11,500 bases of DNA. It comes from Candidatus Falkowiibacteriota bacterium. GTDB lineage: Bacteria > Patescibacteriota > Patescibacteriia > Patescibacteriales > SZUA-104. The stretch spans positions 1-11,500 of the forward strand of contig QIIF01000141.1 in assembly GCA_003231075.1 (NCBI GenBank). Reading direction: 5' to 3'. A model generated the notes under the pieces. That model worked only from the letters and a program-made list of their open reading frames with translations. It ran no database searches and was not told the origin of the DNA. Both the position numbers and the translations under genes were made by a program. Shown here piece by piece: positions 513 through 11,428 of this stretch. Within the stretch, counting starts at the first letter, position 1; the number at the start of each line of letters is the position of its first letter.

Positions 513-1572
513 AATCCAAACAATCTTAATGGAAGGATTTAACAAACGACTATATACGGCGGCGGCGGCGAGGATAGTGCGTGGCAAAAAAGTAATACTT
601 GAATCCGCCGTTGGACAATTAGACCCTAAAAACGAAAAAAACGAAACACAACTTGATTCAATGTTTGATTTAGCATCACTAACAAAAGTTTTTACAGCAA
701 CCGCTTTTATGAAAATGGTAGAGATGAACCAAATCGGCTTGGATAATTTTGTTTCCGAAATTGTTCCTGAATTTTCGGACGGTAAGAAAAAAAAAGTAAC
801 TTTCCGCCACCTGCTATCTCATTCAAGCGGCCTGCCCGCGAGTTTTAATTTGTATGAAAAACAGGAGTGGAACAAAGGAAATGAAGTTGTAATGAATAAG
901 CTGTTTAATGTTCCATTGATCTTAACTCCAGGATTTCAGGCGGTCTATAGTTGCTTGGGCTTTATGCTGTTAGGATACGCTATGGAAAAAATCACCGGAA
1001 ATCGTTTGGATAAAATTTTTAACGATGTTCTTTTTAAACCATTAAAATGGCAAGGTGTTCTTTTTAAGCCGCCTATGGAATACGCGAAAAAAATAGCAGT
1101 AACTACCTACACCAGACCGAACCGCGGAACTTTAACGCCAGGCATTGTCCACGATGGAAACGCCATTGCTCTCCATAATGGAATAGCCGGTAATGCCGGT
1201 TTGTTTGGGATCGCTAAAAGCGTGTCGTTTTTAGGAGAAATATTTCTAAATAAGTCATTTCTCTCCGCGCAAACTATTGGGCAAATGATTTCTCTGCAAG
1301 CTGAATCTGATTCGGAGAAAATGGGGATCGGTTGGAAATTGCATTCAATAAACAATAGCTGCCCAGGCAGCTCGCTTTCTTCCGGCTCATTCGGCCACAC
1401 CGGTTTTACCGGAACATCGTTATGGGTTGATCCAAAAAATCAATTAGTGCTTACGCTGTTAACCAATAGCGTACATTATTATAATAACGATTATGGCCCG
1501 AAAGAGTTTATGAATTTCCGCCGAGAATTTCATCAATGCGCGCTTGATTCCATACTGCGAGATCAATATTAA
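505..1572 (+). CDS. Beta-lactamase-family (class C / PBP-like) serine hydrolase
   Basis: The 355-residue protein has the serine beta-lactamase/transpeptidase fold (COG1680 type). Motif 1 is SLTK at residues 58-61, in MFDLASLTKVFTA, giving nucleophile Ser58 and Lys61. Motif 2 is YSC at 148-150, where many homologues have YSN or YSD. Motif 3 is HTG at 298-300, within FGHTGFTG. The stretch VHDGNAIALHNGIAGNAGLFG (about 216-235) is typical of this esterase/PBP-like branch. No signal peptide or membrane segment is visible at the N-terminus, so it probably acts in the cytoplasm. Members include D-aminopeptidases, esterases and peptidoglycan-recycling enzymes as well as AmpC, so resistance cannot be assumed. 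Overlap with a MurA-like gene points to cell-wall metabolism. The start at 505 is fixed by the AAGGAG site. An in-frame GCG repeat near 558-570 encodes a short alanine run. Confidence 0.9.
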   Translation: MNKIQTILMEGFNKRLYTAAAARIVRGKKVILESAVGQLDPKNEKNETQLDSMFDLASLTKVFTATAFMKMVEMNQIGLDNFVSEIVPEFSDGKKKKVTFRHLLSHSSGLPASFNLYEKQEWNKGNEVVMNKLFNVPLILTPGFQAVYSCLGFMLLGYAMEKITGNRLDKIFNDVLFKPLKWQGVLFKPPMEYAKKIAVTTYTRPNRGTLTPGIVHDGNAIALHNGIAGNAGLFGIAKSVSFLGEIFLNKSFLSAQTIGQMISLQAESDSEKMGIGWKLHSINNSCPGSSLSSGSFGHTGFTGTSLWVDPKNQLVLTLLTNSVHYYNNDYGPKEFMNFRREFHQCALDSILRDQY

Positions 1573-1609
1573 ACCAATAATTGTTAAGGCCTGTGTGTGG
1601 AACCATGTA

Positions 1610-1637
1610 TTTACATTTTAAAATAATAAAATACTAA
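1610..1637 (+). promoter_or_regulatory. Possible sigma70 promoter for the radical SAM pair
   Basis: TTTACA at 1610-1615 and TACTAA at 1632-1637 are separated by 16 bases, in an otherwise very A/T-rich 137-bp gap. Such matches arise easily in AT-rich DNA, so this is only a candidate. It would give a leader of about 65 nt before the ATG at 1710. Confidence 0.3.
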
Positions 1638-1709
1638 AATAAAATAACATATTAAAGGGATAATAGTCATTTAGCTGAACATTAAAAACTATAAAAAGGA
1701 GGCATAAAA

Positions 1710-2630
1710 ATGTATGTGATTTGGAATCTAACTCGTGTTTGTCCTTGGAATTGTTCGTTTTGTTGTGTGTCAGCTATTTTTGCCAACAACAAAATTGATG
1801 CTGAGATTAAATGCGCAAAAGAAATCTCACGCAACAGGCAACTTGTTTTTGATGAAAAAATTCAAGTTTTACGTATTCTGGCTGCGCAAAATGTAGAAAT
1901 TGATTTTTCGGGCGGTGATCCCTTATTTTGCGAGGACGATATTAAAGTTCTTGAAAAAGCGATTTCCATAATGCCAGCCGAAAAAATTGATGTGAGCATG
2001 ACTGGTACTTTGTTAAATCAAAGAAAAATTGATATCCTTAAGAATGTTGATAAAGTAGAATTTACTTTGGATAACCTTCCCGGTACTCTTAATCCGTTAA
2101 GACCAAGCGGGTATAATATTTCCACAATGGAGGCGATGATAGAATTGTTAAAGCATGACATAAACGTGTCAGCCGTTACTACGCTTCATAAATACACCAT
2201 GGCAAAAGAAAACTTAATTGCTATTTATCAATGGCTTTCTAAAAATAAAGTTAAGACATGGAGTATTTTGAAGTTTTATCCTGTTGGCAGGGGCGTTAAA
2301 ACTGAATATTTAACATTATCCAAAAATGCGTATCTTGAAATAATGGACTTCCTTAGGAGCTTAAAGGGATATACTGAAGTAGTTTTTCAGCATTCTATGC
2401 GTATTCTGAACAATACTTACAAATGTCATGCGGCCATGGAAACAGTTGGCGTTTTGCCTGACGGAAAAATTACGGCATGTGCTTGGGCGTTAGATAAAAG
2501 ATGCAATCCTTTAGAAAATTTTCTTATCGGAAAATTACCGGAAGATGATTTTGACAACATGCTAAAAAAAGCAAGGCGAAATATGGGATACAAAAAAAGA
2601 CCGCATTTCTGCCGAATAACAAAACAATAG
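1710..2630 (+). CDS. Radical SAM protein with a short SPASM/twitch-like C-terminal region
   Basis: The 306-residue protein starts after a near-perfect SD site, AAGGAGG at 1696-1702, 7 bases before the ATG. CxxxCxxC is present at Cys11, Cys15 and Cys18 (RVCPWNCSFC) and binds the [4Fe-4S] cluster that cleaves S-adenosylmethionine. GGDP at 68-71 is the SAM-binding 'GGE'-type motif in the form common to SPASM/twitch relatives. The C-terminus carries additional cysteines at 239, 257, 265 and 301 around GVLPDGKITAC and FLIGKL, which resembles an auxiliary-cluster (twitch or shortened SPASM) domain. Such proteins modify peptides, cofactors or carbohydrates. No precursor peptide is visible nearby, so the substrate is unknown. 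The next radical SAM gene follows after 8 bp and is certainly in the same operon. Confidence 0.9.
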   Translation: MYVIWNLTRVCPWNCSFCCVSAIFANNKIDAEIKCAKEISRNRQLVFDEKIQVLRILAAQNVEIDFSGGDPLFCEDDIKVLEKAISIMPAEKIDVSMTGTLLNQRKIDILKNVDKVEFTLDNLPGTLNPLRPSGYNISTMEAMIELLKHDINVSAVTTLHKYTMAKENLIAIYQWLSKNKVKTWSILKFYPVGRGVKTEYLTLSKNAYLEIMDFLRSLKGYTEVVFQHSMRILNNTYKCHAAMETVGVLPDGKITACAWALDKRCNPLENFLIGKLPEDDFDNMLKKARRNMGYKKRPHFCRITKQ

Positions 2631-2633
2631 GAG
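2629..2633 (+). promoter_or_regulatory. Shine-Dalgarno site overlapping the upstream stop codon
   Basis: AGGAG spans the TAG stop of the first radical SAM gene and lies 5 bases before the ATG at 2639. This ties translation of the second gene to termination of the first. Confidence 0.55.
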
Positions 2634-2638
2634 TTGTT

Positions 2639-3442
2639 ATGAAAATTCAAGAAATAAAAGCAAAAACAATTTTAACTAAAAGCAAGATTCCTGAAGCCGA
2701 CTATTGCGTTAATCCATACATTGGATGCGCGCATGGATGCATCTACTGCTACGCAAGATTCATGAAAAGATTTACCGGACACAGTAACGATGAATGGGGT
2801 GAGTTTGTTGATGTTAAAATCAACTCAGTTGAATTACTAGAAAAACAGTTGTCCAAAAAACCCGCTAAAGGCACTATTCTTCTCGGCAGTGTGACAGATG
2901 CTTATCAACCGATTGAACGCAAATACGCGCTAACCAGGGCAATTGTAAAAACTATATCAAAGCATCAATATCCATTATCAATTTTAACAAAATCGGATTT
3001 AGTAGTTAGGGATGTTGATATTTTTAAAAAAGCCATTAATTGTGAAGTTGGCTTAACGATTACAATGTTGGACAGAAAGAAGGCTAAAGTTATTGAACCT
3101 TTAGCGGTTAGTCCCGAAAGACGATTAATCGCATTGTCAAAACTCAAACAAGCAGGTATAACAACTTATGCTTTTATTGGTCCGATTTTGCCCGGAATAA
3201 CTGATCTGCCTCAAATTTTTACTGAATTGACTGGAAAAATTGACTTTGTTATGGCGGAAAGCTTAAATCCAAAATTCGGAAATTGGGATAATTTTTTTAA
3301 AATAATCTCAGTAAACTTTCCCAAATTGGCATCGCTGTACGAGACCGGTTTTGATGAGCCATACTGGGATGAAATTGAAAATTTAGTAAAAAGTTTGTGC
3401 CGAGAGCATGGCGTTAAATTAAAAGGTTTTTATAGACACTAA
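2639..3442 (+). CDS. Radical SAM protein of the SPL (spore photoproduct lyase-like) family
   Basis: The 267-residue protein has CxxxCxxC at Cys30, Cys34 and Cys37 in NPYIGCAHGCIYCYAR, the signature of the COG1533/SPL-like radical SAM group. Other family landmarks are TILLGSVTDAYQPIE (about 79-93), ILTKSD (115-120), VGLTITMLD (137-145) and GPILPGITD (181-189). The family is widespread in bacteria that do not sporulate, and most members are uncharacterised. At 267 residues this one is shorter than genuine Bacillus SplB as I know it, so DNA photoproduct repair should not be inferred. It is translationally coupled to the preceding radical SAM gene and followed at once by a terminator, so the two form a bicistronic unit. 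Confidence 0.88.
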   Translation: MKIQEIKAKTILTKSKIPEADYCVNPYIGCAHGCIYCYARFMKRFTGHSNDEWGEFVDVKINSVELLEKQLSKKPAKGTILLGSVTDAYQPIERKYALTRAIVKTISKHQYPLSILTKSDLVVRDVDIFKKAINCEVGLTITMLDRKKAKVIEPLAVSPERRLIALSKLKQAGITTYAFIGPILPGITDLPQIFTELTGKIDFVMAESLNPKFGNWDNFFKIISVNFPKLASLYETGFDEPYWDEIENLVKSLCREHGVKLKGFYRH

Positions 3443-3525: not shown

Positions 3526-3981
3526 ATGGATATTGCAAAATTAAAACAATTTTTAGTAAACGCAAAGAAAAATACTTACGCGTCCGGAGGCGAAAGTAAA
3601 GCTAAAACTTTTTTTGACGGCACAAAAGAATATATATTTAACGAGGGTAATTTAAAATATGTAGATAGATATAAATGCCATGAAAAATTTAATGGCTAAG
3701 AAAATGTTTTTAAAAATAATAAATTTGTCTGGATAATGAAATATAAGGGCGAAATTTTATCGGATGAAATTCCGGCTGACGATATTTATTCTTTTTTAAA
3801 AAAAACTCTTAAACAAACTCCAAACGATCAGCAGTTTCGCGGCCCCAAAAAATTAATTGACAAAAAATTTAAATATACAAATAACATCAAGGGTGGTATA
3901 AAAAAATTTTCCGGGGAGGAAAAAATATTTTACGAGAATAAATTAGCATATATTTTAGTTTACAGCGGAAAAACTATTTGA
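3526..3981 (+). pseudogene. DUF5680-type gene interrupted by an in-frame TAA
   Basis: Translation from ATG 3526 gives MDIAKLKQFLVNAKKNTYASGGE, which I recognise as the start of DUF5680 proteins, small proteins of unknown function. The frame meets TAA at 3697-3699 (codon 58) after DRYKCHEKFNG. The same frame then continues with ENVFKNNKFVWIMKYKGE and ends with KKFSGEEKIFYENKLAYILVYSGKTI before TGA at 3979-3981, which looks like the rest of the same family. Homologues in my memory have GEEVVF across the stop, so GAA to TAA is a sufficient single change. Total length without the stop would be about 150 residues, normal for the family. The upstream ATG at 3463 lies inside the terminator hairpin and is not credible. 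A TATAAT at 3516-3521 immediately precedes the ATG and could drive a leaderless transcript. Alternatives are a sequencing error or readthrough. Confidence 0.75.
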
Positions 3982-4003
3982 AATTAATATTTCCAGAAAA
4001 AAA

Positions 4004-4609
4004 ATGATTATACCATGGGGGATACCAGACGAATTGTGCAAGCAGGCAAAACCAAAAAAACGTTGGGCAAAAAAAGAATATAATATTTTATACGCGGGAA
4101 GGTTGAGTAAAAATAAGGGAGTAGATATTATAATCAATGCGTTAACTCTATTAGATAAGCGCGTTAAGTTAACCATCATTGGCAGTGGAGATCAGCTGGA
4201 GAATTTAAAAAAAATAACAATAGATAATAGTTTGAAAAATAGGGTAAAATTTATTCCATTCCAAACAAGAAAAAGATTATGGGAATATTTTAAAAATTTT
4301 GATACATTAGTTGTGTCAACAAAAATTATTGAAGCCTTTTGCTTAACAGCCGTTGAAGCTCAAGCGCATGGGTTGCCTGTAATTTACTCAGACATAGGCG
4401 GAACAAAAGATGTGATTGGAAAATCAGGAATAATTTTTAAAGCGGGTAGTCATATAGATTTAGCGGCTAAAATCAACTCTTTGCTGTTTAATTTTGAAGC
4501 GCTTAATAATTATTCAAAACTTGCGATTAAAAATGTAAAAAAATATAAAATATCCAAAACAAAAAAATTATTTTACGATATTTCCGCGGAAATTATAAAA
4601 AATTATTAA
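4004..4609 (+). pseudogene. GT4-family glycosyltransferase, N-terminally truncated (C-terminal Rossmann domain only)
   Basis: The 201 residues from ATG 4004 match the nucleotide-sugar-binding C-terminal half of GT-B, family 4 glycosyltransferases. YAGRLSKNKGVDIIINAL (30-47) carries the donor-phosphate residues Arg33 and Lys38. LTIIGSGDQLENLKK (56-70) follows, and E110-x7-E118 (EAFCLTAVE) with HGLPVIYSDIGG (122-133) is the EX7E region. Full-length members are about 350-400 residues, so the acceptor domain is missing. The same frame is open further upstream to 3959 and reads FTAEKLFEINISRKK before the ATG. That also looks like glycosyltransferase sequence, so homology extends into the 3' end of the DUF5680 gene in another frame. 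No SD site precedes 4004. I read this as a remnant joined by deletion or recombination, although a single-domain expressed protein cannot be excluded. Confidence 0.72.
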
Positions 4610-4941
4610 TAACTTTACTGGTTTAACCATTTATGCGAAACCGCTTTGCAAACGACAGATAAAAATAAAAACATTTCAACATTATCCGTGGCTCGCGTCC
4701 TAACTCCACGCAAAACATAAAATCATTAGAGGTTATGTTCAAAAGACGCTAACGCAATCCGCATAATAGAAGGTAATAATACATAATGTGATTTTACATA
4801 ATAACTATCCGCTTATTTCCGTGATATCGCAACGCAAACTGTCCGCCCCTCATTTTTTTACAAAAAGTGAGTGGCAAACAGTCCGCTTTGCGGATTGGAA
4901 ATAAAAAAATAAAAAATCATAAAATATTTTAACTAATTGCC

Positions 4942-4968
4942 AAAACAGGCCCCGAGGGCCTGTTTTTT
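4942..4968 (+). terminator. Strong intrinsic terminator hairpin
   Basis: AAAACAGGCCC (4942-4952) pairs perfectly with GGGCCTGTTTT (4956-4966) around the 3-base loop CGA, followed by more T. It lies about 330 bases after the glycosyltransferase remnant. The A-run on the 5' side makes it potentially bidirectional. Confidence 0.8.
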
Positions 4969-5055
4969 GCGTCGCGAAAAAATTCTGCCCGTTTCAACAC
5001 TCCACGGAACTCGGTTCAATGTGCCCGGAACCGATTTCCGCCGCGGTTTCCAACC

Positions 5056-5109
5056 GAGATCCAATCTCCGCCCCGCCCCTCGCGAGGGGCGGGGCGGAGA
5101 TTGGATCTC
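5056..5109. repeat. Perfect 54-bp GC-rich palindrome
   Basis: Every base from 5056 to 5109 is complementary to its mirror partner around the centre between 5082 and 5083. Outer arms read GAGATCCAATCTCC and GGAGATTGGATCTC, and the core is CCGCCCCGCCCCTCG against its complement. There is no spacer, so in DNA it could form a cruciform and in RNA a long stem. It has no T-run, so it is not a standard terminator. The GC content contrasts strongly with surrounding DNA. Function unknown. Confidence 0.9.
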
Positions 5110-5123
5110 TCGCCTTTCCCGCG

Positions 5124-5261
5124 ATTGCCGCTTTTAAAATTATTTTAGCGCCACAAAAGCAATATTAACGAGGCATGGCGATAATTCCAAAAATTGACAA
5201 TATGATTTTTTTTTTTGATAATTATAAAATAGCTCTTTAAAAAATACTCAAAAGCGGCAAT
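5124..5261. repeat. 12-bp inverted repeats bracketing a promoter
   Basis: ATTGCCGCTTTT at 5124-5135 is the exact reverse complement of AAAAGCGGCAAT at 5250-5261. The 114 bases between contain the near-consensus promoter at 5194-5222. The match stops at exactly 12 bp on both sides. This arrangement resembles an invertible promoter, but a repeat this short can occur by chance. Confidence 0.45.
5194..5222 (+). promoter_or_regulatory. Near-consensus sigma70 promoter for the PRTase-HAD gene
   Basis: TTGACA at 5194-5199 and GATAAT at 5217-5222 are separated by exactly 17 bases, most of them a T-run. This predicts transcription from about 5229 and a leader of about 140 nt. It is the best promoter match I see in the window. 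Confidence 0.7.
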
Positions 5262-5268
5262 GCTTTTG
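5249..5268 (+). promoter_or_regulatory. Leader hairpin upstream of the PRTase-HAD gene
   Basis: CAAAAGC (5249-5255) pairs with GCTTTTG (5262-5268) around the loop GGCAAT. It would form about 20 nt into the predicted transcript, a position suited to 5'-end stabilisation or regulation. No known riboswitch is recognisable in the rest of the leader. Confidence 0.4.
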
Positions 5269-5368
5269 GTTAAAATAAAATGATATTAAAAAGGCGAAAA
5301 ACTTAACAACCCATTGTTATATGTAGCTTAAAAAATTTCAAAACTTAAATAAATTATGGAGGTTCCCA

Positions 5369-7300
5369 ATGAAAATGAATGAAATTTTTAAAAAGGCGGC
5401 AAAATTTTCAGTGAGCGACGAATTAAGATTAAAACAATTTAATTCTCTAACCAGCATAAAAAGAGAGTATGACATTATTGACACTCATCGCGTTAGACAG
5501 ATGTTTCGTGGCAATAAACTGCTTTTATGTTCTGATGATTCAGAAACAGCATGCTATACAATGGAGGAATTTAACGCCTTCATAAAGCGATTAGATTCAT
5601 TAAAAATGGATGCAAAAAACATAAGACATATCAAAAAATATGTTGAATCTCGTATTTCCAAATACACAAGTCCTCGGCGCGGTCCTTGCGTAGCTTTGCG
5701 TGGTAAACCGTATTACACTAATATCCTTAAACAAAATAATAAAAAAGCTATCAAACATCTCAACGGCATGCTTGCAGTAGATTTTCAAATGTATAATTAT
5801 ATGGCGCGCATTGACATTGCCCTTCCAAGAGAATTGTATTATATCACTATTGAACATATAAAAAATATCATGTTTATAGTGATGAACGCGTACATCACAA
5901 AATCATTAAAAAACGATAACTTTTTCAAACCGTCTCAATGGCTCTTACTGGATAATATTTGCAGAACTCTTTGGGAAGAATTTGTCAATGTATTATTTTG
6001 TGAAAACAGCTTATACATAAATACCAGTAAAATAAGCGCCGCAAATATTACCCTGATATTGGATCGTATCTCGGACCAAAATATTTACAAAGTTCGAGAG
6101 CTTGACAGCGCTAAAACATTAATGCGTTTAGCAGCTTTGTTTTTTGATGGTAATGCTCCAGATTTTGACTATTACTTTGGCTTGCTTTATGGCGGAATTG
6201 AGATGCCCTATGCATTATATGGGTATAGTATATTTCATGGCAAAAAATTTGGACAGATTATTCCCGCGATGTTTTCTCTAAACCGAATAAAAAAAGGTGT
6301 TTTACCGGAATTAATATTAGGGAATAACGGGCTTATCAAGGAAACACAATTCAATAAGATTATACCAAATTATTTTTTGGATGCTGTGCGTGATAGTTCG
6401 TTGAGTAAAGCGGTGGTGTTAGATAATAACATTACTTCTGGATATTCCCTTAAAATTTTTACTGAATCTCTCAGTCAAATTATCAATACGGTAAAATGTT
6501 CTGTTGCTGAAATTAACATTCAGGAAATAAAAGCGATCCTGGAAAAGAGAATTGGATTTACAAATAAACAAATTCTCATATCCGGTAAAGAATTATATTG
6601 CCGCCCGGTCGGAGAATACATTACCTGTTTTGGCTTAAATGATTCAAGCCAAGTTGTAAATAGGATTAAATTCATTACGGGACAAGATAGTTATCAACAA
6701 GCTATCGGATATGACTTTGATGACACTCTTTTTAAAACCGGTAAAATTCACGGATTAACATGGAACACTGCTCTTGCCAATATGGGCATCCAATTAGATG
6801 TTAATGATATGCCTACTAATTCCGGATTTACATTTAAAGAAGCCGCATCTAACATCTACTCATATGTCTCTGAAAAAAAAGCGACGGATCTTGAAAAAAA
6901 TATGTTTGTAGAGATGTTGATCAAACACAAAAAGAAAGCATTACTTAACATTCCAACAAAAGAAATAATGAGTATCGGAGCAAATATTAACATGATTAAA
7001 TACGACGAAAGCAGTACAAATATTATTATTACGAACAACACGCTGGAATTTGTGCTTCATATTCTACAAAAAAAGGAGCTATTAGATTATTTTTCATTTT
7101 TAGTTTGTAATGACTTGGCTATGTGCGTAAAAACAGAAGAAAAAATAATTTTAACCGGCTCTTCAAAACCGTCGATTGAAGCATGTATGGAAGCCTTTAA
7201 TTATTTTGATATTCCTATGATTAAAAAATATGTAGGAGACAACCCTATAATCGATGGTGATTTTGCAAATCGCATGAAATGTGAATTTGTATTAGTATAA
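5369..7300 (+). CDS. Phosphoribosyltransferase-like / HAD phosphatase fusion protein
   Basis: The ATG at 5369 follows GGAGG (5358-5362) by 6 bases. The 643-residue product has three parts. Residues 1 to about 255 are not recognised; no signal peptide or clear membrane segment is seen. Residues about 260-425 look like a type I phosphoribosyltransferase: YYFGLLYGGIEMP (268-280) resembles the GGI loop, and VVLDNNITSGYS (349-360) aligns with the PRPP-binding motif VDDVITTGAT. Residues about 445-643 form a HAD hydrolase: DFDDT at 449-453 (nucleophile Asp449, acid Asp451), Thr555 in IIITNN as motif II, Lys600 in GSSKPS as motif III, and GDNPIIDGD at 623-631 as motif IV. The roughly 100 residues between motifs I and II would be a C1 cap. 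The likely activity is phosphate or ribose-phosphate transfer plus dephosphorylation of a small metabolite. A terminator follows, so it is probably monocistronic. The exact substrate is unknown. Confidence 0.85.
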   Translation: MKMNEIFKKAAKFSVSDELRLKQFNSLTSIKREYDIIDTHRVRQMFRGNKLLLCSDDSETACYTMEEFNAFIKRLDSLKMDAKNIRHIKKYVESRISKYTSPRRGPCVALRGKPYYTNILKQNNKKAIKHLNGMLAVDFQMYNYMARIDIALPRELYYITIEHIKNIMFIVMNAYITKSLKNDNFFKPSQWLLLDNICRTLWEEFVNVLFCENSLYINTSKISAANITLILDRISDQNIYKVRELDSAKTLMRLAALFFDGNAPDFDYYFGLLYGGIEMPYALYGYSIFHGKKFGQIIPAMFSLNRIKKGVLPELILGNNGLIKETQFNKIIPNYFLDAVRDSSLSKAVVLDNNITSGYSLKIFTESLSQIINTVKCSVAEINIQEIKAILEKRIGFTNKQILISGKELYCRPVGEYITCFGLNDSSQVVNRIKFITGQDSYQQAIGYDFDDTLFKTGKIHGLTWNTALANMGIQLDVNDMPTNSGFTFKEAASNIYSYVSEKKATDLEKNMFVEMLIKHKKKALLNIPTKEIMSIGANINMIKYDESSTNIIITNNTLEFVLHILQKKELLDYFSFLVCNDLAMCVKTEEKIILTGSSKPSIEACMEAFNYFDIPMIKKYVGDNPIIDGDFANRMKCEFVLV

Positions 7301-7309
7301 CACTTTATC

Positions 7310-7351
7310 AATCTTCATATTTGCCTAAACGCCAATATGAAGATTTTTTTT
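7310..7351 (+). terminator. Intrinsic terminator after the PRTase-HAD gene
   Basis: AATCTTCATATT (7310-7321) and AATATGAAGATT (7334-7345) are perfect 12-bp complements separated by a 12-base loop, and the 3' arm runs into eight T at 7344-7351. It starts 10 bases after the stop codon. Confidence 0.9.
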
Positions 7352-7378
7352 GTTCTTTTTTTAACTCGCCAATAATCC

Positions 7379-7407
7379 TTGCCTAAACTCATTATTTTCT
7401 ATATATT
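7379..7407 (+). promoter_or_regulatory. Candidate sigma70 promoter for the kinase-SIS pair
   Basis: TTGCCT at 7379-7384 and TATATT at 7402-7407 are 17 bases apart, just downstream of the preceding terminator. A start near 7414 would give a leader of about 60 nt. The region is AT-rich, which lowers its weight. Confidence 0.5.
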
Positions 7408-7472
7408 ATAAGCAGCGCTATTAATTTTATAATTTTAACTTTGCAGAACGCAAATTAATACAGATTAATATT

Positions 7473-8397
7473 ATGTTGAAAAAAAAAGTTTTGGTTATCG
7501 GCCCAATGCTGGCTGATATTTCTTTAAATATCAAGCTGCCTCATACGCTGAATAGCATTATTGCTCATTCAAACATATCTATATCTCCCGGGGGGAAAGG
7601 GGTATAATATCGCGCATACATTAAATCTCTTGAACGTCCCCGCCATATTGTCTACCATGTACGGCAAAGATGACATAGGGAAATTTTTCGCGCGCCATCT
7701 AAAAAATAAAAATATTGAAGCGCCTGCTTCAAATATTGTTGATGGCAATTCCGGCATTTTTGTGGCTGTTCTCAACCAAAAAGGAGACACGCTCTTTGAT
7801 AAAGCTGATACTCGCATATTTCAAAAGCAACAATTTCCAAAAATAGACTGGGATACTGTAAAAGTAATAATGGTATTATCATCAACAAGCGCGAAAATTC
7901 TCAAGCAATTAATCAAAGTAAAGCGAGCGCGCCCCGATATAACGCTTTGCGTGGAAATGTCCGGCGGCAAAACAGCTGAACACATTGCGCCTTATCTTTC
8001 TTGTTTTGACTTCTACATAAGCAACCGCCGCGAAGCGCAAAGCATCGGCAATGTATCGGGCGTAAATAAAAATATAAACGCCATCGTCAAGCATCTTCTT
8101 GCGAAAGGCGTTAAATTGGCGATTATCACCTCGGGCAAACATAGCGTGCTTGTCGGAAATTCTATCAATAATACCGTAATAAAATATCCGCTTAAAAAAG
8201 TTATAAAACGCGCCATCTCTTCTGTCGGCGCCGGAGATACATTTACGGCGGCTTTTTGCGCGGCGCATTATATATACGGTAAAAACATTAAACACAGTGT
8301 CAATGCCGCAATGGATATGTCCGCCCTGACCGTTTCTAACATAAATCCGGTAATTGACCGCGCGCCGGAACATATATATAACTCAATAACACGATAA
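7473..8397 (+). pseudogene. PfkB/ribokinase-family sugar or nucleoside kinase, frameshifted in the GGKG motif
   Basis: From ATG 7473 the frame reads MLKKKVLVIGPMLADISLNIKLP up to ISPGGKGV and stops at TAA 7605-7607. The +1 frame continues from the same motif as GGKGYNIAHTLNLLNVPAIL to 8397. Joining the two gives a 307-residue protein, the normal PfkB length. Landmarks in the joined product are the N-terminal beta strand with the Asp of MLAD (substrate binding), GGKGYN (motif 1, about 40-45), NRRE (184-187, phosphate/Mg binding) and SSVGAGDTF (motif 2, catalytic Asp255). The shift needs removal of one G from G6 (7590-7595) or G4 (7599-7602). It may be a sequencing error, a real mutation, or a +1 slip on GGG-G. 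The TTG at 7561 sometimes chosen as start is not credible because it drops the first strands. No SD site precedes 7473. Substrate is unclear: ribose-like sugars or nucleosides are typical for the family. Confidence 0.82.
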
Positions 8398-8401
8398 TTA
8401 T

Positions 8402-9370
8402 ATGGAATTTAAAAAACACGCGGAAAAATCAATTAACGCCGTAATGGATACATTCGCGCATAAACATATTTTTAAACCGCTCCCGTCAAAAACAAAAAAA
8501 ATTTTCATTATCGGCAGCGGCTCATCTTACAGCCAAGCGCTCTATCTGGGGCAATTATTCAACGACTATCTGCCGTATCCGGTGATAATAAACAACCCAT
8601 ACAGTTTTGTTGCTTACAATAAAGTGGCGTCAAATGATGTTTGTATTCATTTTAGCCAGGAATTTAAAAGAAATGATAATGTGTGCCCATTAAAATTCGC
8701 GAAAAAACACGGATTGCGCACAATTTTATTTTCTGCATCTAAATTAAAAAGAGAATATAAGAATATTATTGACGAACATTATTGGTTTGCCCCTGAAACA
8801 GAAAAAATATTAGTGGCATCTATGAGCTATCTCGCGGGTTATTCAGCGGCCTTAAAATATATTGATTACCAATTGCAAGTTAGCGGCAAACAGCCAATTA
8901 AATACGACATAGGCGGCATATCAAAAACTATGTTAAAAAGCTTAAATACTAATTTTAAATTTCAGGATATATTCAGTGTATTCTTGTATGCCGGCGGGTA
9001 CGCTCAATCTGTAGCTGTTGAGGGGGCGTTAAAAATGAATGAATGCGTTTTGCAAGACAGCGAATCATACGAAATAAAACATTATTCTCACGGCAAACAT
9101 TTTGTAAGCTGTAATAATAATCGTCTCTTTAATGTGCTATACGGCAACAATGACAAGAAGTTAGTTGATTTATACAACGGCACAATATTTGAAAAATATC
9201 ATACGGTAAATTTGATGAAATCAAATTTACCTAATGAAACGGCTATATTTGACTGGGGCGCGCAAATGCTCGCATTTATTATTCAGGGCATGATAAATAA
9301 AAAAATACTGTTAAAAGACATACCAATACGAAACAAAATACGCGTCCCCCATTCTTTTATTTATAAATAA
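8402..9370 (+). CDS. Double-SIS sugar-phosphate isomerase/deaminase related to the GlmS isomerase domain
   Basis: The 322-residue protein has two SIS domains and no glutaminase domain. SIS1 covers about 33-130, with FIIGSGSSYSQAL at 35-47. SIS2 covers about 190-300, with FLYAGGYAQSVAVEGALKMNE ending at 214. Aligning the second domain with E. coli GlmS puts Glu207, Lys211, Glu214 and His230 at the spacings of GlmS Glu481, Lys485, Glu488 and His504 (numbering from memory), so the sugar isomerisation residues appear intact. In SIS1 the usual SxSGxT phosphate loop is replaced by SQEFKRN (85-91). This suggests an aldose/ketose-phosphate isomerase or a deaminase/deglycase such as the AgaS/FrlB group. 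The ATG lies 4 bp after the kinase stop without an SD site, implying coupled translation. It should use the same or a related metabolite as the kinase. Confidence 0.85.
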   Translation: MEFKKHAEKSINAVMDTFAHKHIFKPLPSKTKKIFIIGSGSSYSQALYLGQLFNDYLPYPVIINNPYSFVAYNKVASNDVCIHFSQEFKRNDNVCPLKFAKKHGLRTILFSASKLKREYKNIIDEHYWFAPETEKILVASMSYLAGYSAALKYIDYQLQVSGKQPIKYDIGGISKTMLKSLNTNFKFQDIFSVFLYAGGYAQSVAVEGALKMNECVLQDSESYEIKHYSHGKHFVSCNNNRLFNVLYGNNDKKLVDLYNGTIFEKYHTVNLMKSNLPNETAIFDWGAQMLAFIIQGMINKKILLKDIPIRNKIRVPHSFIYK

Positions 9371-9440
9371 AAACAAAATACATGCTATTGAATTTTACGG
9401 ATAAAGATAACATCGCAAAAAACGAACGGGATGACAAAGG

Positions 9441-9546
9441 AGCGGACGGGATGCCGGAGCGATAGCGAAGACAGCCCGTACGCGGATTTACTTCGCTGAA
9501 CGCCTCCGCGTACGGGCTACTCCCTCTCGGTCGTATCCCGTCCGCT
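9441..9546. repeat. Nested GC-rich inverted repeat (106 bp)
   Basis: Outer arms AGCGGACGGGAT (9441-9452) and ATCCCGTCCGCT (9535-9546) are perfect 12-bp complements. Inner arms AGCCCGTACGCGGA (9473-9486) and TCCGCGTACGGGCT (9505-9518) are perfect 14-bp complements with an 18-base loop. The result is a two-tier stem with asymmetric internal loops. No T-run follows. It could be a REP-like element, a folded RNA, or a small non-autonomous mobile element. Confidence 0.8.
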
Positions 9547-9551
9547 ACCAT

Positions 9552-9574
9552 CGGAGTCTCCGACAGGGACTCCG
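9552..9574. repeat. Short hairpin next to the nested repeat
   Basis: CGGAGTC (9552-9558) and GACTCCG (9568-9574) are perfect 7-bp complements with a 9-base loop. TCGGAGTC recurs at 9687-9694. Confidence 0.5.
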
Positions 9575-9770
9575 GCGGCGCGTGGAAGAACATGAAATTC
9601 AGATAGAATTTTAGCGGAGAGACAATGATACTTTCCGCCTGTTTCCGGCAGCGGCTTATTGAATAACAATCTTTTTGCTGGCACCGTCGGAGTCCGCCGC
9701 GGCGAGACTCAGACGAGGCTAAAACACATCTGCCATTATTATGTTATATCTAAAATAAAAAACCAAATCA

Positions 9771-9800
9771 AAAACAGACCCTCGGGGGTTTGTTTTGTTT
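9771..9800 (+). terminator. Intrinsic terminator resembling the one at 4942
   Basis: AAACAGACCC (9772-9781) pairs with GGGTTTGTTT (9786-9795), with one G-U pair in RNA, followed by more T. It lies about 400 bases after the SIS gene, so the kinase-SIS transcript could include a long structured 3' region. The arm is close to the AAACAGGCCC arm of the terminator at 4942-4968. Confidence 0.65.
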
Positions 9801-9854
9801 TAGTTAGACGCGCTAACCTGCGGGACCGATTCCCGTTCCTTGACCGCGGACGCC

Positions 9855-9875
9855 GGGGCGAATACCATTCGCCCC
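9855..9875. repeat. Perfect GC-rich hairpin
   Basis: GGGGCGAAT (9855-9863) and ATTCGCCCC (9867-9875) are perfect 9-bp complements around the loop ACC. Words like this recur as dispersed intergenic repeats in some uncultured bacterial genomes, from memory. No T-run follows. Confidence 0.7.
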
Positions 9876-10013
9876 TACAAATAGCGTGGCGATAATTCCA
9901 TACCATTAATTATCCGCAAAAGGTAACCCTAATTACTGCAATTATAATAAGATAATGTCAACTGCAACATAGACGAGCGCAAATTTTGTTCAAGTCCACG
10001 AACATAATGTCAA

Positions 10014-10058
10014 AGCCAAATAGAAATGTCATAGTTGGAGCCAAATAGAAATGTCATA
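10014..10058. repeat. Direct repeat at the left end of the insertion sequence
   Basis: AGCCAAATAGAAATGTCATA occurs at 10014-10033 and again at 10039-10058, a 25-bp period. With AATGTCA at 10006 it forms an iterated end that is a probable transposase-binding array. Confidence 0.85.
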
Positions 10059-10111
10059 CCATGTTAAATTAATAAATTGGAAATATGTTTTTGGCCGATA
10101 GGCACCAAAGA

Positions 10112-11428
10112 TTAAGCGGACATTGTTTTATTCGTTAGAACGCGTTCTGTTGTCTCGTTTTTCATCCGATTCAGTAAAAATTGCCTTCTCCACGGATGAT
10201 CAGCCGGCGGCTTGTAATGTGATTGGTCCGATCTAGTGATAGCCGCCAATTTAACGTTTATTTCTTTTTTCGGCCTTTCCGGCAATACCGCGTAATTGAG
10301 ATAATTATTTTTTAAACATAATTTTATCTCCCCGTCCAAATGTTCCTCAATAATAACCGCGTCCTTTTTATACACAACCGCTGATTGCTCTCTATCCAAT
10401 TGAAAATATTGTCCGTTAAATCTAATCGTGTAATCATTATTCACTTTCCTAATATTCTGAACGGAAAATATTTTCGGCAGCATTTCTTTTGTCCGCTCAT
10501 CCATTTTTTTATGCAAATCCCTTTTCCTTTTCGGAACAACCGCGAATTTGGCGTTAAGTTTCGGGATGTATGCTTTTAGAAATTCATTCGCCTCTTCTAT
10601 GGTTGTGATTCCAGCTAACCGCAATTCTTTAATCAGTCTATCCTGCAATGTTTGGAACATTCTTTCAACCCTGCCCTTGGCCTCCGGACTATGCGCCGTT
10701 ATCGGTTTCACGCCCGCCTGATTCATCGCTCTTTGGAATTGAGTAATCATATCCTTGTTATCCACCGCGTTTTTATGGTTTATTTTGTATGTAGAAAACT
10801 TATCTAAATATATTGACAATGGTAATCCGTTTTTTAGAAAATACTCTTTCCAAAATTTGAATACCGCAATCGTGCTTTCATTAATATCAAATTTACCGTA
10901 TGTTATTTTTCCGGTAGCGTCATCCACGGACAGCAGCAGACAACTCTCTTCATCTCCGAACCAAACATGGTATGATCCGTCAAATTGCTCCATTTCGCCG
11001 AAGTTGTCTTTTCTCGCCCTCCAGACATGCCATTTTTTTGATTGTTTTTTCGGTTTCGGTTTCCATAATTTCAAATTGGTCATAATGCCACGAACAGTTT
11101 CTTTCCCTAATTTTATTTTATGTATTTCATTTAACTTTTCAGCGGCGAATGTGGGGCCGAAATCATAGTATTTTTCTTTTAAATGTTTTTCCGCTTTTTT
11201 AGCAATTTCCGGATCTAATTTTCTGTTGCCTGCCATACCCCTGCTTGCGTGAATTAATCCCTCGGTACCGCGCTCTTTCACTTTGAGCTTTAACCTCTTT
11301 ACATGCCTTATTGATACCCCGATCTGCTTGGCCGCGTCCGTGCCGTTGATTTTGCCGTTAACCAGGTTATTAATGACATGAACCCTTGATAACTCTTTTT
11401 TTGACATGCATATTAGTTTTTGAGCCAT
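10112..11428 (-). CDS. ISNCY/IS1202-family DDE transposase
   Basis: The 438-residue protein begins with helix-turn-helix DNA-binding segments (about 10-60; MSKKELSRVHVINNLVNG, then DAAKQIGVSIRHVKRL). The stretch YYDFGPTFAAEKL (87-99) follows, as in other IS1202-type transposases. The integrase-like core shows Asp150 in EQFDGSYHVWFG, Asp209 in IYLDKFSTY, and Glu255 in SPEAKGRVERMFQTLQDRL, giving a DDE triad with 45 residues between the last two. Domain length and order appear complete, with no frameshift, so the element may be active. The C-terminal part (about 320-438) has RHNGQYF-like beta-strand sequence (IRFNGQYFQL) typical of the family's tail. Met1 at 11428 or Met8 at 11407 could be the start, and neither has an SD site. 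Transcription runs leftward, convergent with the cassette. Confidence 0.92.
   Translation of the reverse strand: MAQKLICMSKKELSRVHVINNLVNGKINGTDAAKQIGVSIRHVKRLKLKVKERGTEGLIHASRGMAGNRKLDPEIAKKAEKHLKEKYYDFGPTFAAEKLNEIHKIKLGKETVRGIMTNLKLWKPKPKKQSKKWHVWRARKDNFGEMEQFDGSYHVWFGDEESCLLLSVDDATGKITYGKFDINESTIAVFKFWKEYFLKNGLPLSIYLDKFSTYKINHKNAVDNKDMITQFQRAMNQAGVKPITAHSPEAKGRVERMFQTLQDRLIKELRLAGITTIEEANEFLKAYIPKLNAKFAVVPKRKRDLHKKMDERTKEMLPKIFSVQNIRKVNNDYTIRFNGQYFQLDREQSAVVYKKDAVIIEEHLDGEIKLCLKNNYLNYAVLPERPKKEINVKLAAITRSDQSHYKPPADHPWRRQFLLNRMKNETTERVLTNKTMSA

Follow-up and report, generated by a model that had tools for sequence, protein, structure and literature searches.

Single polypeptide chains that combine a phosphoribosyltransferase (PRT) with a HAD phosphatase, and in which transfer is followed by dephosphorylation, have been characterized among the glycan ribofuranosyltransferases (PMC11127046, PMC10299916, PMC12096443, and PMC11231755). 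The described systems include gPRT plus PRP of the Klebsiella O-antigen type, which PMC11127046 cites from Kelly 2022, CriT-CrpP of Bcs3, which is a bipartite ribofuranosyltransferase (PMC10299916), and the middle and C-terminal domains of Cj1432, which form another (PMC12096443); a C-terminal phosphatase is also mentioned for one membrane-type relative (PMC11127046). CriT is described as an active PRPP-dependent ribofuranosyltransferase whose acid pair is split, with E818 in loop 3 and D680 in loop 1, an arrangement that gives a more open site, and helical bundles surround its PRT-like core (PMC10299916).

The stretch of DNA analyzed here, which we refer to as the window, comprises 11,500 nucleotides of contig QIIF01000141.1 from Candidatus Falkowiibacteriota bacterium. 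It encodes a protein, PRT-HAD, that resembles the bipartite ribofuranosyltransferases, as described, in having a putative PRPP-using transferase and a HAD phosphatase in one chain, with transfer and then dephosphorylation as the putative steps; the resemblance to CriT extends to the helical bundles and perhaps to an acid pair of which one member lies away from the PRPP loop. However, in the available descriptions of CrpP-CriT and Cj1432 the HAD domain precedes the PRT, whereas in the window protein the PRT (residues 247-422) precedes the HAD (residues 445-643), and the window family also differs in its D-N PRPP loop, its cassette of pfkB and SIS genes and in that no glycan cluster was recognized in the scanned flanking genes. 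The initial annotation of this DNA regarded a single chain of PRT plus HAD with a long novel N-terminal region as unusual; a lack of precedent for the single chain is not supported, given the characterized glycan enzymes (PMC11127046, PMC10299916, PMC12096443). Its further question, whether the architecture is an already characterized one, has a divided answer: single-chain precedents bring it close to that, but the domain order is reversed. As the order is reversed and the resemblance is one of described architecture and chemistry, PRT-HAD is not simply a member of the named gPRT/CriT family. The listed matches from the open-licence literature included no description of a PRT-HAD fusion from Patescibacteria or of its cassette with pfkB and SIS.

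The PRT-HAD Gene and Its Domains

The PRT-HAD gene (5369..7300, plus strand, as are its parts, its promoter-like site and the hairpin and two genes downstream) encodes 643 residues from an ATG start in a frame that is open throughout, and it is the sole match in the source assembly (193 contigs totaling 857,684 bases, with a completeness of 80.7%). Upstream lies a promoter-like site, TTGACA-17-GATAAT (5194..5222), that agrees with the consensus at 11 of 12 positions; a scan of both strands of 4500-10200 returned 26 sites against a mean of 21.2 in shuffled sequence, so the site alone is weak evidence. Searches of the window for RNA families and tRNAs found none. A role in anti-phage defense was considered and set aside, as PADLOC gave no family for the PRT-HAD protein.

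The predicted structure, which was built from six sequences and is of low confidence in its HAD part, divides the chain into several modules. The N-terminal region contains a conserved arginine-rich hairpin (Y-x-S-x-R ... LRGxxY; residues 97-118, 5657..5722) with modeled strands at 97-101 and 105-109, followed by a four-helix bundle (residues 121-241, 5729..6091); the N-terminal 255 residues, which the initial annotation called unrecognized, are not a single separate novel domain. A fold search with the helical region returned no row above noise, which is no proof of a new fold. Residues 247-422 (6107..6634) form a predicted type I PRT alpha/beta core that includes a pyrophosphate loop, YGGIEMP (residues 274-280, 6188..6208), with the invariant E278, a loop 2 of the form S303-x-N305-R306-x-x-K309 (6275..6295), in which all four named residues are invariant, and a PRPP loop, VVLDNNITSGYS (residues 349-360, 6413..6448), in which D-N replaces the usual acidic pair. 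The HAD phosphatase domain with its cap (residues 445-643, 6701..7297) completes the chain and is identified by its motifs and by a match to HAD_2.

The two catalytic-type domains were recognized by different means. In Pfam, HAD_2 matched residues 448-599 with 26.8 bits (cut-off 23.8) and was matched by all six members of A1, and no PRT model of Pfam or NCBIfam was matched by the protein. The NCBIfam matches were weak, came mostly from the beta-phosphoglucomutase group and were all far below their cut-offs (e.g., TIGR02009, 22.5 vs. 153.35 bits). The single protein retrieved nothing from a PDB sequence search up to E 10, and with family profiles the rows were all weak, came from HAD proteins and phosphoenolpyruvate synthase, and included no PRT; the HAD rows belong mostly to the beta-phosphoglucomutase/phosphoglycolate phosphatase group, which PRT-HAD resembles in motifs I-IV and in the cap after motif I. 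For the PRT domain, a PRT or PyrR was named in 48 of the best 50 of 452 structural matches; in the PDB Foldseek search, in which every E-value was above 0.001, matches included PyrR chains and a PurR chain, and the nearest folds were base-using PRTs such as HGXPRT. The viral fold library gave no match at E <= 0.001. At the sequence level, kinship with PRTs is seen through family-profile matches alone: the profile matches the PRPP loop of other PRT-like proteins in genomes, at E 6.0e-5 in a 214-residue protein of G184 that matches Pfam Pribosyltran (E 1.5e-14) and at E 1.5e-4 at a site in G156 that is also hit weakly by a PRPP synthetase model (E 6.8e-6).

Residue conservation was assessed in eight aligned sequences, the most distant of which is 31% identical to the window protein. 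In the PRPP loop none of D352, N353, G358, Y359, and S360 varies among the eight, and such invariance down to 31% identity indicates that the match of VVLDNNITSGYS to the PRPP-loop pattern is beyond chance. The same complete invariance is seen for G275, G276, E278, and P280 of the pyrophosphate loop, for the four residues of loop 2, and for Y99, S101, R103, L110, R111, G112, and Y115 of the N-terminal hairpin, and all eight also conserve the four HAD motifs: DFD (449-451, motif I), T/S-N-N (555-557, motif II), KP (600-601, motif III), and GD....D (623-629, motif IV; G623, D624, and D629). The initial annotation had claimed a PRPP-loop pattern, all four HAD motifs at the C-terminus and the union of a PRT domain with a HAD phosphatase in one chain, and these claims are borne out by the alignment, by the HAD_2 match and by the structure search; structure prediction with fold search, its suggested check, placed a type I PRT fold at the interval given above. 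The PRT-HAD core shares with type I PRTs (HGXPRT, APRT, PyrR) the fold, the pyrophosphate loop and the position of the PRPP loop, and differs from them in the large N-terminal helical region, the Asp-Asn, the fused HAD and the lack of a Pfam PRT match. Since Asn replaces the second acid in every one of the eight sequences and CriT, an active enzyme, also has no adjacent pair, we class PRT-HAD by fold only and not as a canonical type I PRT.

Distribution of PRT-HAD Proteins

PRT-HAD is very rare in Patescibacteria. Two runs of a search of 5.8 billion proteins returned the same six PRT-HAD proteins, the window protein and five others that are 37-57% identical to it; this search catches relatives that have short exact words in common, and more PRT-HAD proteins may exist. 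A scan of genome contigs gave three loci, from Candidatus Gracilibacteria (L002), an uncultured Patescibacteria group bacterium (L003) and Candidatus Paceibacterota (L004). Among 98 relatives of the source genome only the source genome itself has the gene, and in a sample of the phylum 8 of 379 genomes matched at E <= 0.001. Three of these eight contain full relatives, namely the source genome (G000) and the genomes of L003 (G205) and L002 (G177), which were assigned to these loci through identical stretches of 200 bases; the other five gave weak partial matches (E 3.7e-5 to 3.2e-4) and were dropped before the cassette was counted. Among 239 relatives of G205, matches at E 1e-6 came from G205 and G177 alone. 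No PRT-HAD relative was found or confirmed in viral_contigs or phages, and a phage origin was therefore set aside. In L002 the PRT-HAD gene (1482-3319) is interrupted by stops within the profile match, on a contig with a coverage of 4.3.

A more distant relative, L008 (G252:C13, 382-2115), is a protein of 577 residues that shares with PRT-HAD the PRT-like region, in which it reads SYGGIEYP and ILDDNIITGKT, and an ALR-x-x-Y motif. It has no HAD match, reaches the cut-off of no Pfam family and matches PRPP synthetase models weakly. A search with L008 matched 2 of 118 genomes, G252 and one weak match. Its scanned neighbors gave no pathway, and we did not use it as a functional guide.

Linked pfkB and SIS Genes

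Downstream of PRT-HAD lie a pfkB family (ribokinase-like) gene (7473..8397) and a gene for a SIS-domain sugar-phosphate isomerase-like protein of 322 residues (8402..9370; Pfam SIS, E 3.5e-9), and the order PRT-HAD, pfkB, SIS recurs at L002 and L003. Three of the four PRT-HAD loci thus have both partner genes; at L004, the 862 bases left after the PRT-HAD gene contain no pfkB or SIS, and an ORF there is on the opposite strand. The gap between PRT-HAD and pfkB is 172 bases in the window, 92 in L002 and 77 in L003, and the pfkB and SIS genes are 4 bases apart, overlap by 4 and are 7 apart, respectively. In the window this gap contains a terminator-like hairpin (7310..7345) followed by a T-rich run (region 7300-7362, -14.3 kcal/mol, z -7.1), which is not among the eight sites listed by the consensus scan, and hairpins are also found in the gaps of L003 (z -5.7) and L002 (z -4.8). 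A stable hairpin at all three loci means that pfkB and SIS may form a separate transcript, and suggests that PRT-HAD is not co-transcribed with them.

In the window the pfkB gene changes frame near 7590-7600 and is thereby broken: the frame 7473-7607 stops at TAA and the remainder is open in another frame to 8397, with the open piece 7561-8394 matching Pfam PfkB at E 1.9e-26. The change falls in a G-rich run, and the L002 and L003 relatives are open; it may be an assembly error or a real loss. The best NCBIfam score of the window piece is to ribokinase (63.6 bits, cut-off 299.65), and pfkB also scores to ribose-1-phosphate kinases, with all NCBIfam scores below cut-off.

The SIS protein, whose SIS domain is matched in two stretches, resembles the GlmS isomerase domain, NagB-II and GlmD in its SIS domain and in an E-G-A-L-K-x-x-E segment that aligns with GlmS and in which E207, K211, and E214 are present in 23 of 23 aligned sequences. 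Profile A7 found GlmS-like structures in the PDB at E-values down to 1e-11. The protein is not a full-length GlmS, as the GlmS family model gives it 28.5 bits (cut-off 418.05); it reaches no NCBIfam cut-off, and the source genome has a true full GlmS, separately, on another contig. Its C-terminal end, PH...Y, lacks the C-terminal lysine of GlmS, and we assign putative roles to its conserved Lys and Glu by comparison with GlmS residues.

The distribution of the SIS protein follows that of PRT-HAD within the phylum sample, where it was found in 3 of 379 genomes, exactly those with a full PRT-HAD relative; it is present in 1 of 314 genomes of the source class (the source genome) and, within the class to which G205 belongs, in two of six (G205 and G177). 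A protein search found 26 SIS proteins at E <= 1e-30, the window's included, against the six PRT-HAD proteins, an excess that could come from stronger conservation of SIS or from SIS genes that stand alone. The contigs of two SIS proteins (P0015 and P0027) measure 6896 and 18254 bases, as do those of the PRT-HAD proteins P0003 and P0005, and the equal sizes, which are indirect evidence, suggest that the two pairs share contigs. For the remaining three PRT-HAD proteins the contigs measure 3576, 3144, and 2014 bases, which is less than the cassette (~3.8 kb), and so cannot show the whole of it. A plasmid search with the SIS protein gave one weak match (E 9e-6, 26.9% identity), and a plasmid origin was set aside like a phage one.

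Proposed Function of PRT-HAD

We propose, at even odds (a probability of about 0.5), that PRT-HAD is a single-chain, two-step ribosyltransferase that acts on a sugar or other non-base acceptor supplied with the help of pfkB and SIS. The PRT domain (~247-422) would move ribose-5-phosphate from PRPP, the putative donor, to the acceptor, which is probably a sugar or another compound that is not a purine or pyrimidine; the N-terminal hairpin and helical bundle would shape the acceptor site; and the C-terminal HAD domain would strip the 5-phosphate to leave a ribosyl group, both sites being putatively active. The pfkB and SIS enzymes would make or process the acceptor, which would itself be a sugar phosphate. 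Computation shows the predicted PRT fold, the HAD motifs, the conservation of both in the eight sequences and the linkage to pfkB and SIS at three of four loci, and the characterized single chains provide a precedent for the chemistry. The synthase-phosphatase of the initial annotation thus survives in part: transfer followed by dephosphorylation is the simplest reading of the chain, and the nucleoside-like product that was envisaged becomes a less favored alternative. By analogy with CriT, the acid site could be split, with E278 taking the part of D680; however, L008 has the equivalent of E278 together with a full Asp-Asp pair, so E278 need not be a replacement acid. Further points against the proposal are the L004 locus without pfkB or SIS in its 862 remaining bases, the structural model built from six sequences with its PDB Foldseek E-values above 0.001, the hairpins between PRT-HAD and pfkB, and the absence of a glycan cluster from the scanned flanking genes.

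A nucleoside-like product would require that PRPP be joined to a heterocyclic base or other nitrogen acceptor and that the HAD domain yield the nucleoside, with pfkB and SIS working elsewhere or on a released sugar. We consider this rather unlikely. The nearest folds are indeed base-using PRTs such as HGXPRT, plus PyrR, and the leading kinase scores, to ribokinase and then to ribose-1-phosphate kinases, would fit, sub-threshold as they are. Against this, the model predicts a large helical region where a compact base-binding hood would be expected, a sugar kinase and a SIS protein resembling GlmS accompany the gene, and no base-modifying gene was recognized among the flanking genes scanned. Unlikely, too, is a non-catalytic PRT domain that serves as a sensor of PRPP or of a nucleotide, in the manner of PyrR or PurR, and controls a HAD sugar phosphatase in sugar-phosphate recycling with pfkB and SIS. 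The change of the acidic pair from D-D to D-N in all eight sequences and the PyrR and PurR chains among the structural matches are consistent with such a sensor, and a kinase, an isomerase and a phosphatase suit sugar-phosphate chemistry. The distribution of invariant positions argues otherwise, as the PRT stretch (33 of 188 at 243-430) is conserved like the HAD (31 of 213 at 431-643) and far above the helical bundle (4 of 122 at 121-242; 11 of 65 are invariant at 56-120), and this conservation, including that of the pyrophosphate loop and loop 2, is as expected of a working site.

The sensor would also gain, and the proposed transferase lose, from the finding that no PRPP synthetase was found over the family cut-off in the three cassette genomes (68-81% complete). 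A synthetase over the TIGR01251 cut-off was, however, present in only 27 of 96 genomes of a phylum sample that includes G000 and G177, with some match at E 0.001 in 75 of the 96, so its absence from the cassette genomes says little, and we discarded it as a functional marker. Some of the matches under the cut-off may be diverged true synthetases; the weak match of the source genome is to what we take to be a ComF-like protein. That PRPP is supplied by a host is a conjecture.

The same two activities in one chain could instead mark a true, very diverged and domain-swapped gPRT/CriT plus PRP ribofuranosyltransferase that acts on a surface glycan, and the helical bundles and split acid pair described for CriT (PMC10299916) would agree with this. 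We regard it as improbable, since the domain order is opposite to that described for CrpP-CriT and Cj1432, the flanking genes scanned contain no glycan cluster, and neither CriT nor gPRT is named among the 15 PDB sequence matches up to E 10 or the best 50 of 452 structural matches, although a CriT or gPRT could lie beyond the sequence matches listed, and with 50 of the 452 listed the structural absence carries no weight.

What sets PRT-HAD apart is the order of its domains, its type I core, the change in its acid pair and its linkage to pfkB and SIS. Sugar ribosylation by PRT-HAD can tentatively be taken further, to a doubtful but possible scheme in which a type I PRT fold of the nucleotide-salvage type was recruited, independently of gPRT/CriT, as a ribosyltransferase-phosphatase whose acceptor module is helical and whose acid site is split. 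Together with ribokinase-like and SIS enzymes, it would produce a ribosylated sugar metabolite or a glycan unit of a kind not yet described, in a handful of scattered Patescibacteria. The genomes of Patescibacteria are small and encode little biosynthesis, and a recurring three-gene cassette with a costly enzyme of 643 residues in such genomes suggests a product worth keeping. If sugar ribosylation is the true function, addition of ribose by transfer plus phosphatase exists in at least two domain orders and perhaps evolved repeatedly, and the pattern of D-N plus E278 would aid in finding such enzymes. The PRT-HAD family, its SIS and pfkB partners and the conserved residues constitute a direct test set.

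Wider Gene Neighborhood

In predicted nucleoside-like clusters linked to Ter, with neighbors such as TerD/TerC, ATP-grasp and TRSP, PRT and HAD are usually separate genes. PRT-HAD is similar in bringing the two activities together and differs in that they are fused and that no Ter, ATP-grasp or TRSP Pfam family was present among the scanned neighbors in the window, L002, L003, and L004, and the suggested link to a Ter stress cluster is not supported. A glycosyltransferase fragment lies in the window at 4004-4609, and none was recognized among the scanned flanking genes of L002 and L003.

Other genes of the window were noted in passing. Two adjoining radical SAM genes occupy 1710-2630 and 2639-3442. 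The first scores to viperin models (PADLOC pVip, E 1.1e-9) but is below the NCBIfam cut-offs and scores better to TIGR04133 than to viperin; the second has a Radical_SAM match, with DUF5131 and spore photoproduct lyase below their cut-offs. The fragment-like genes at 3736-4609 encode a DUF5680 protein, of which the later part is present, and a protein of 201 residues with the Glycos_transf_1 domain only, and the ~760 bases after 4609 are without an ORF of at least 80 residues. On the minus strand, 3' of the cassette, 10112-11428 encodes a protein that is transposase-like by eye, with no Pfam match at E 0.001.
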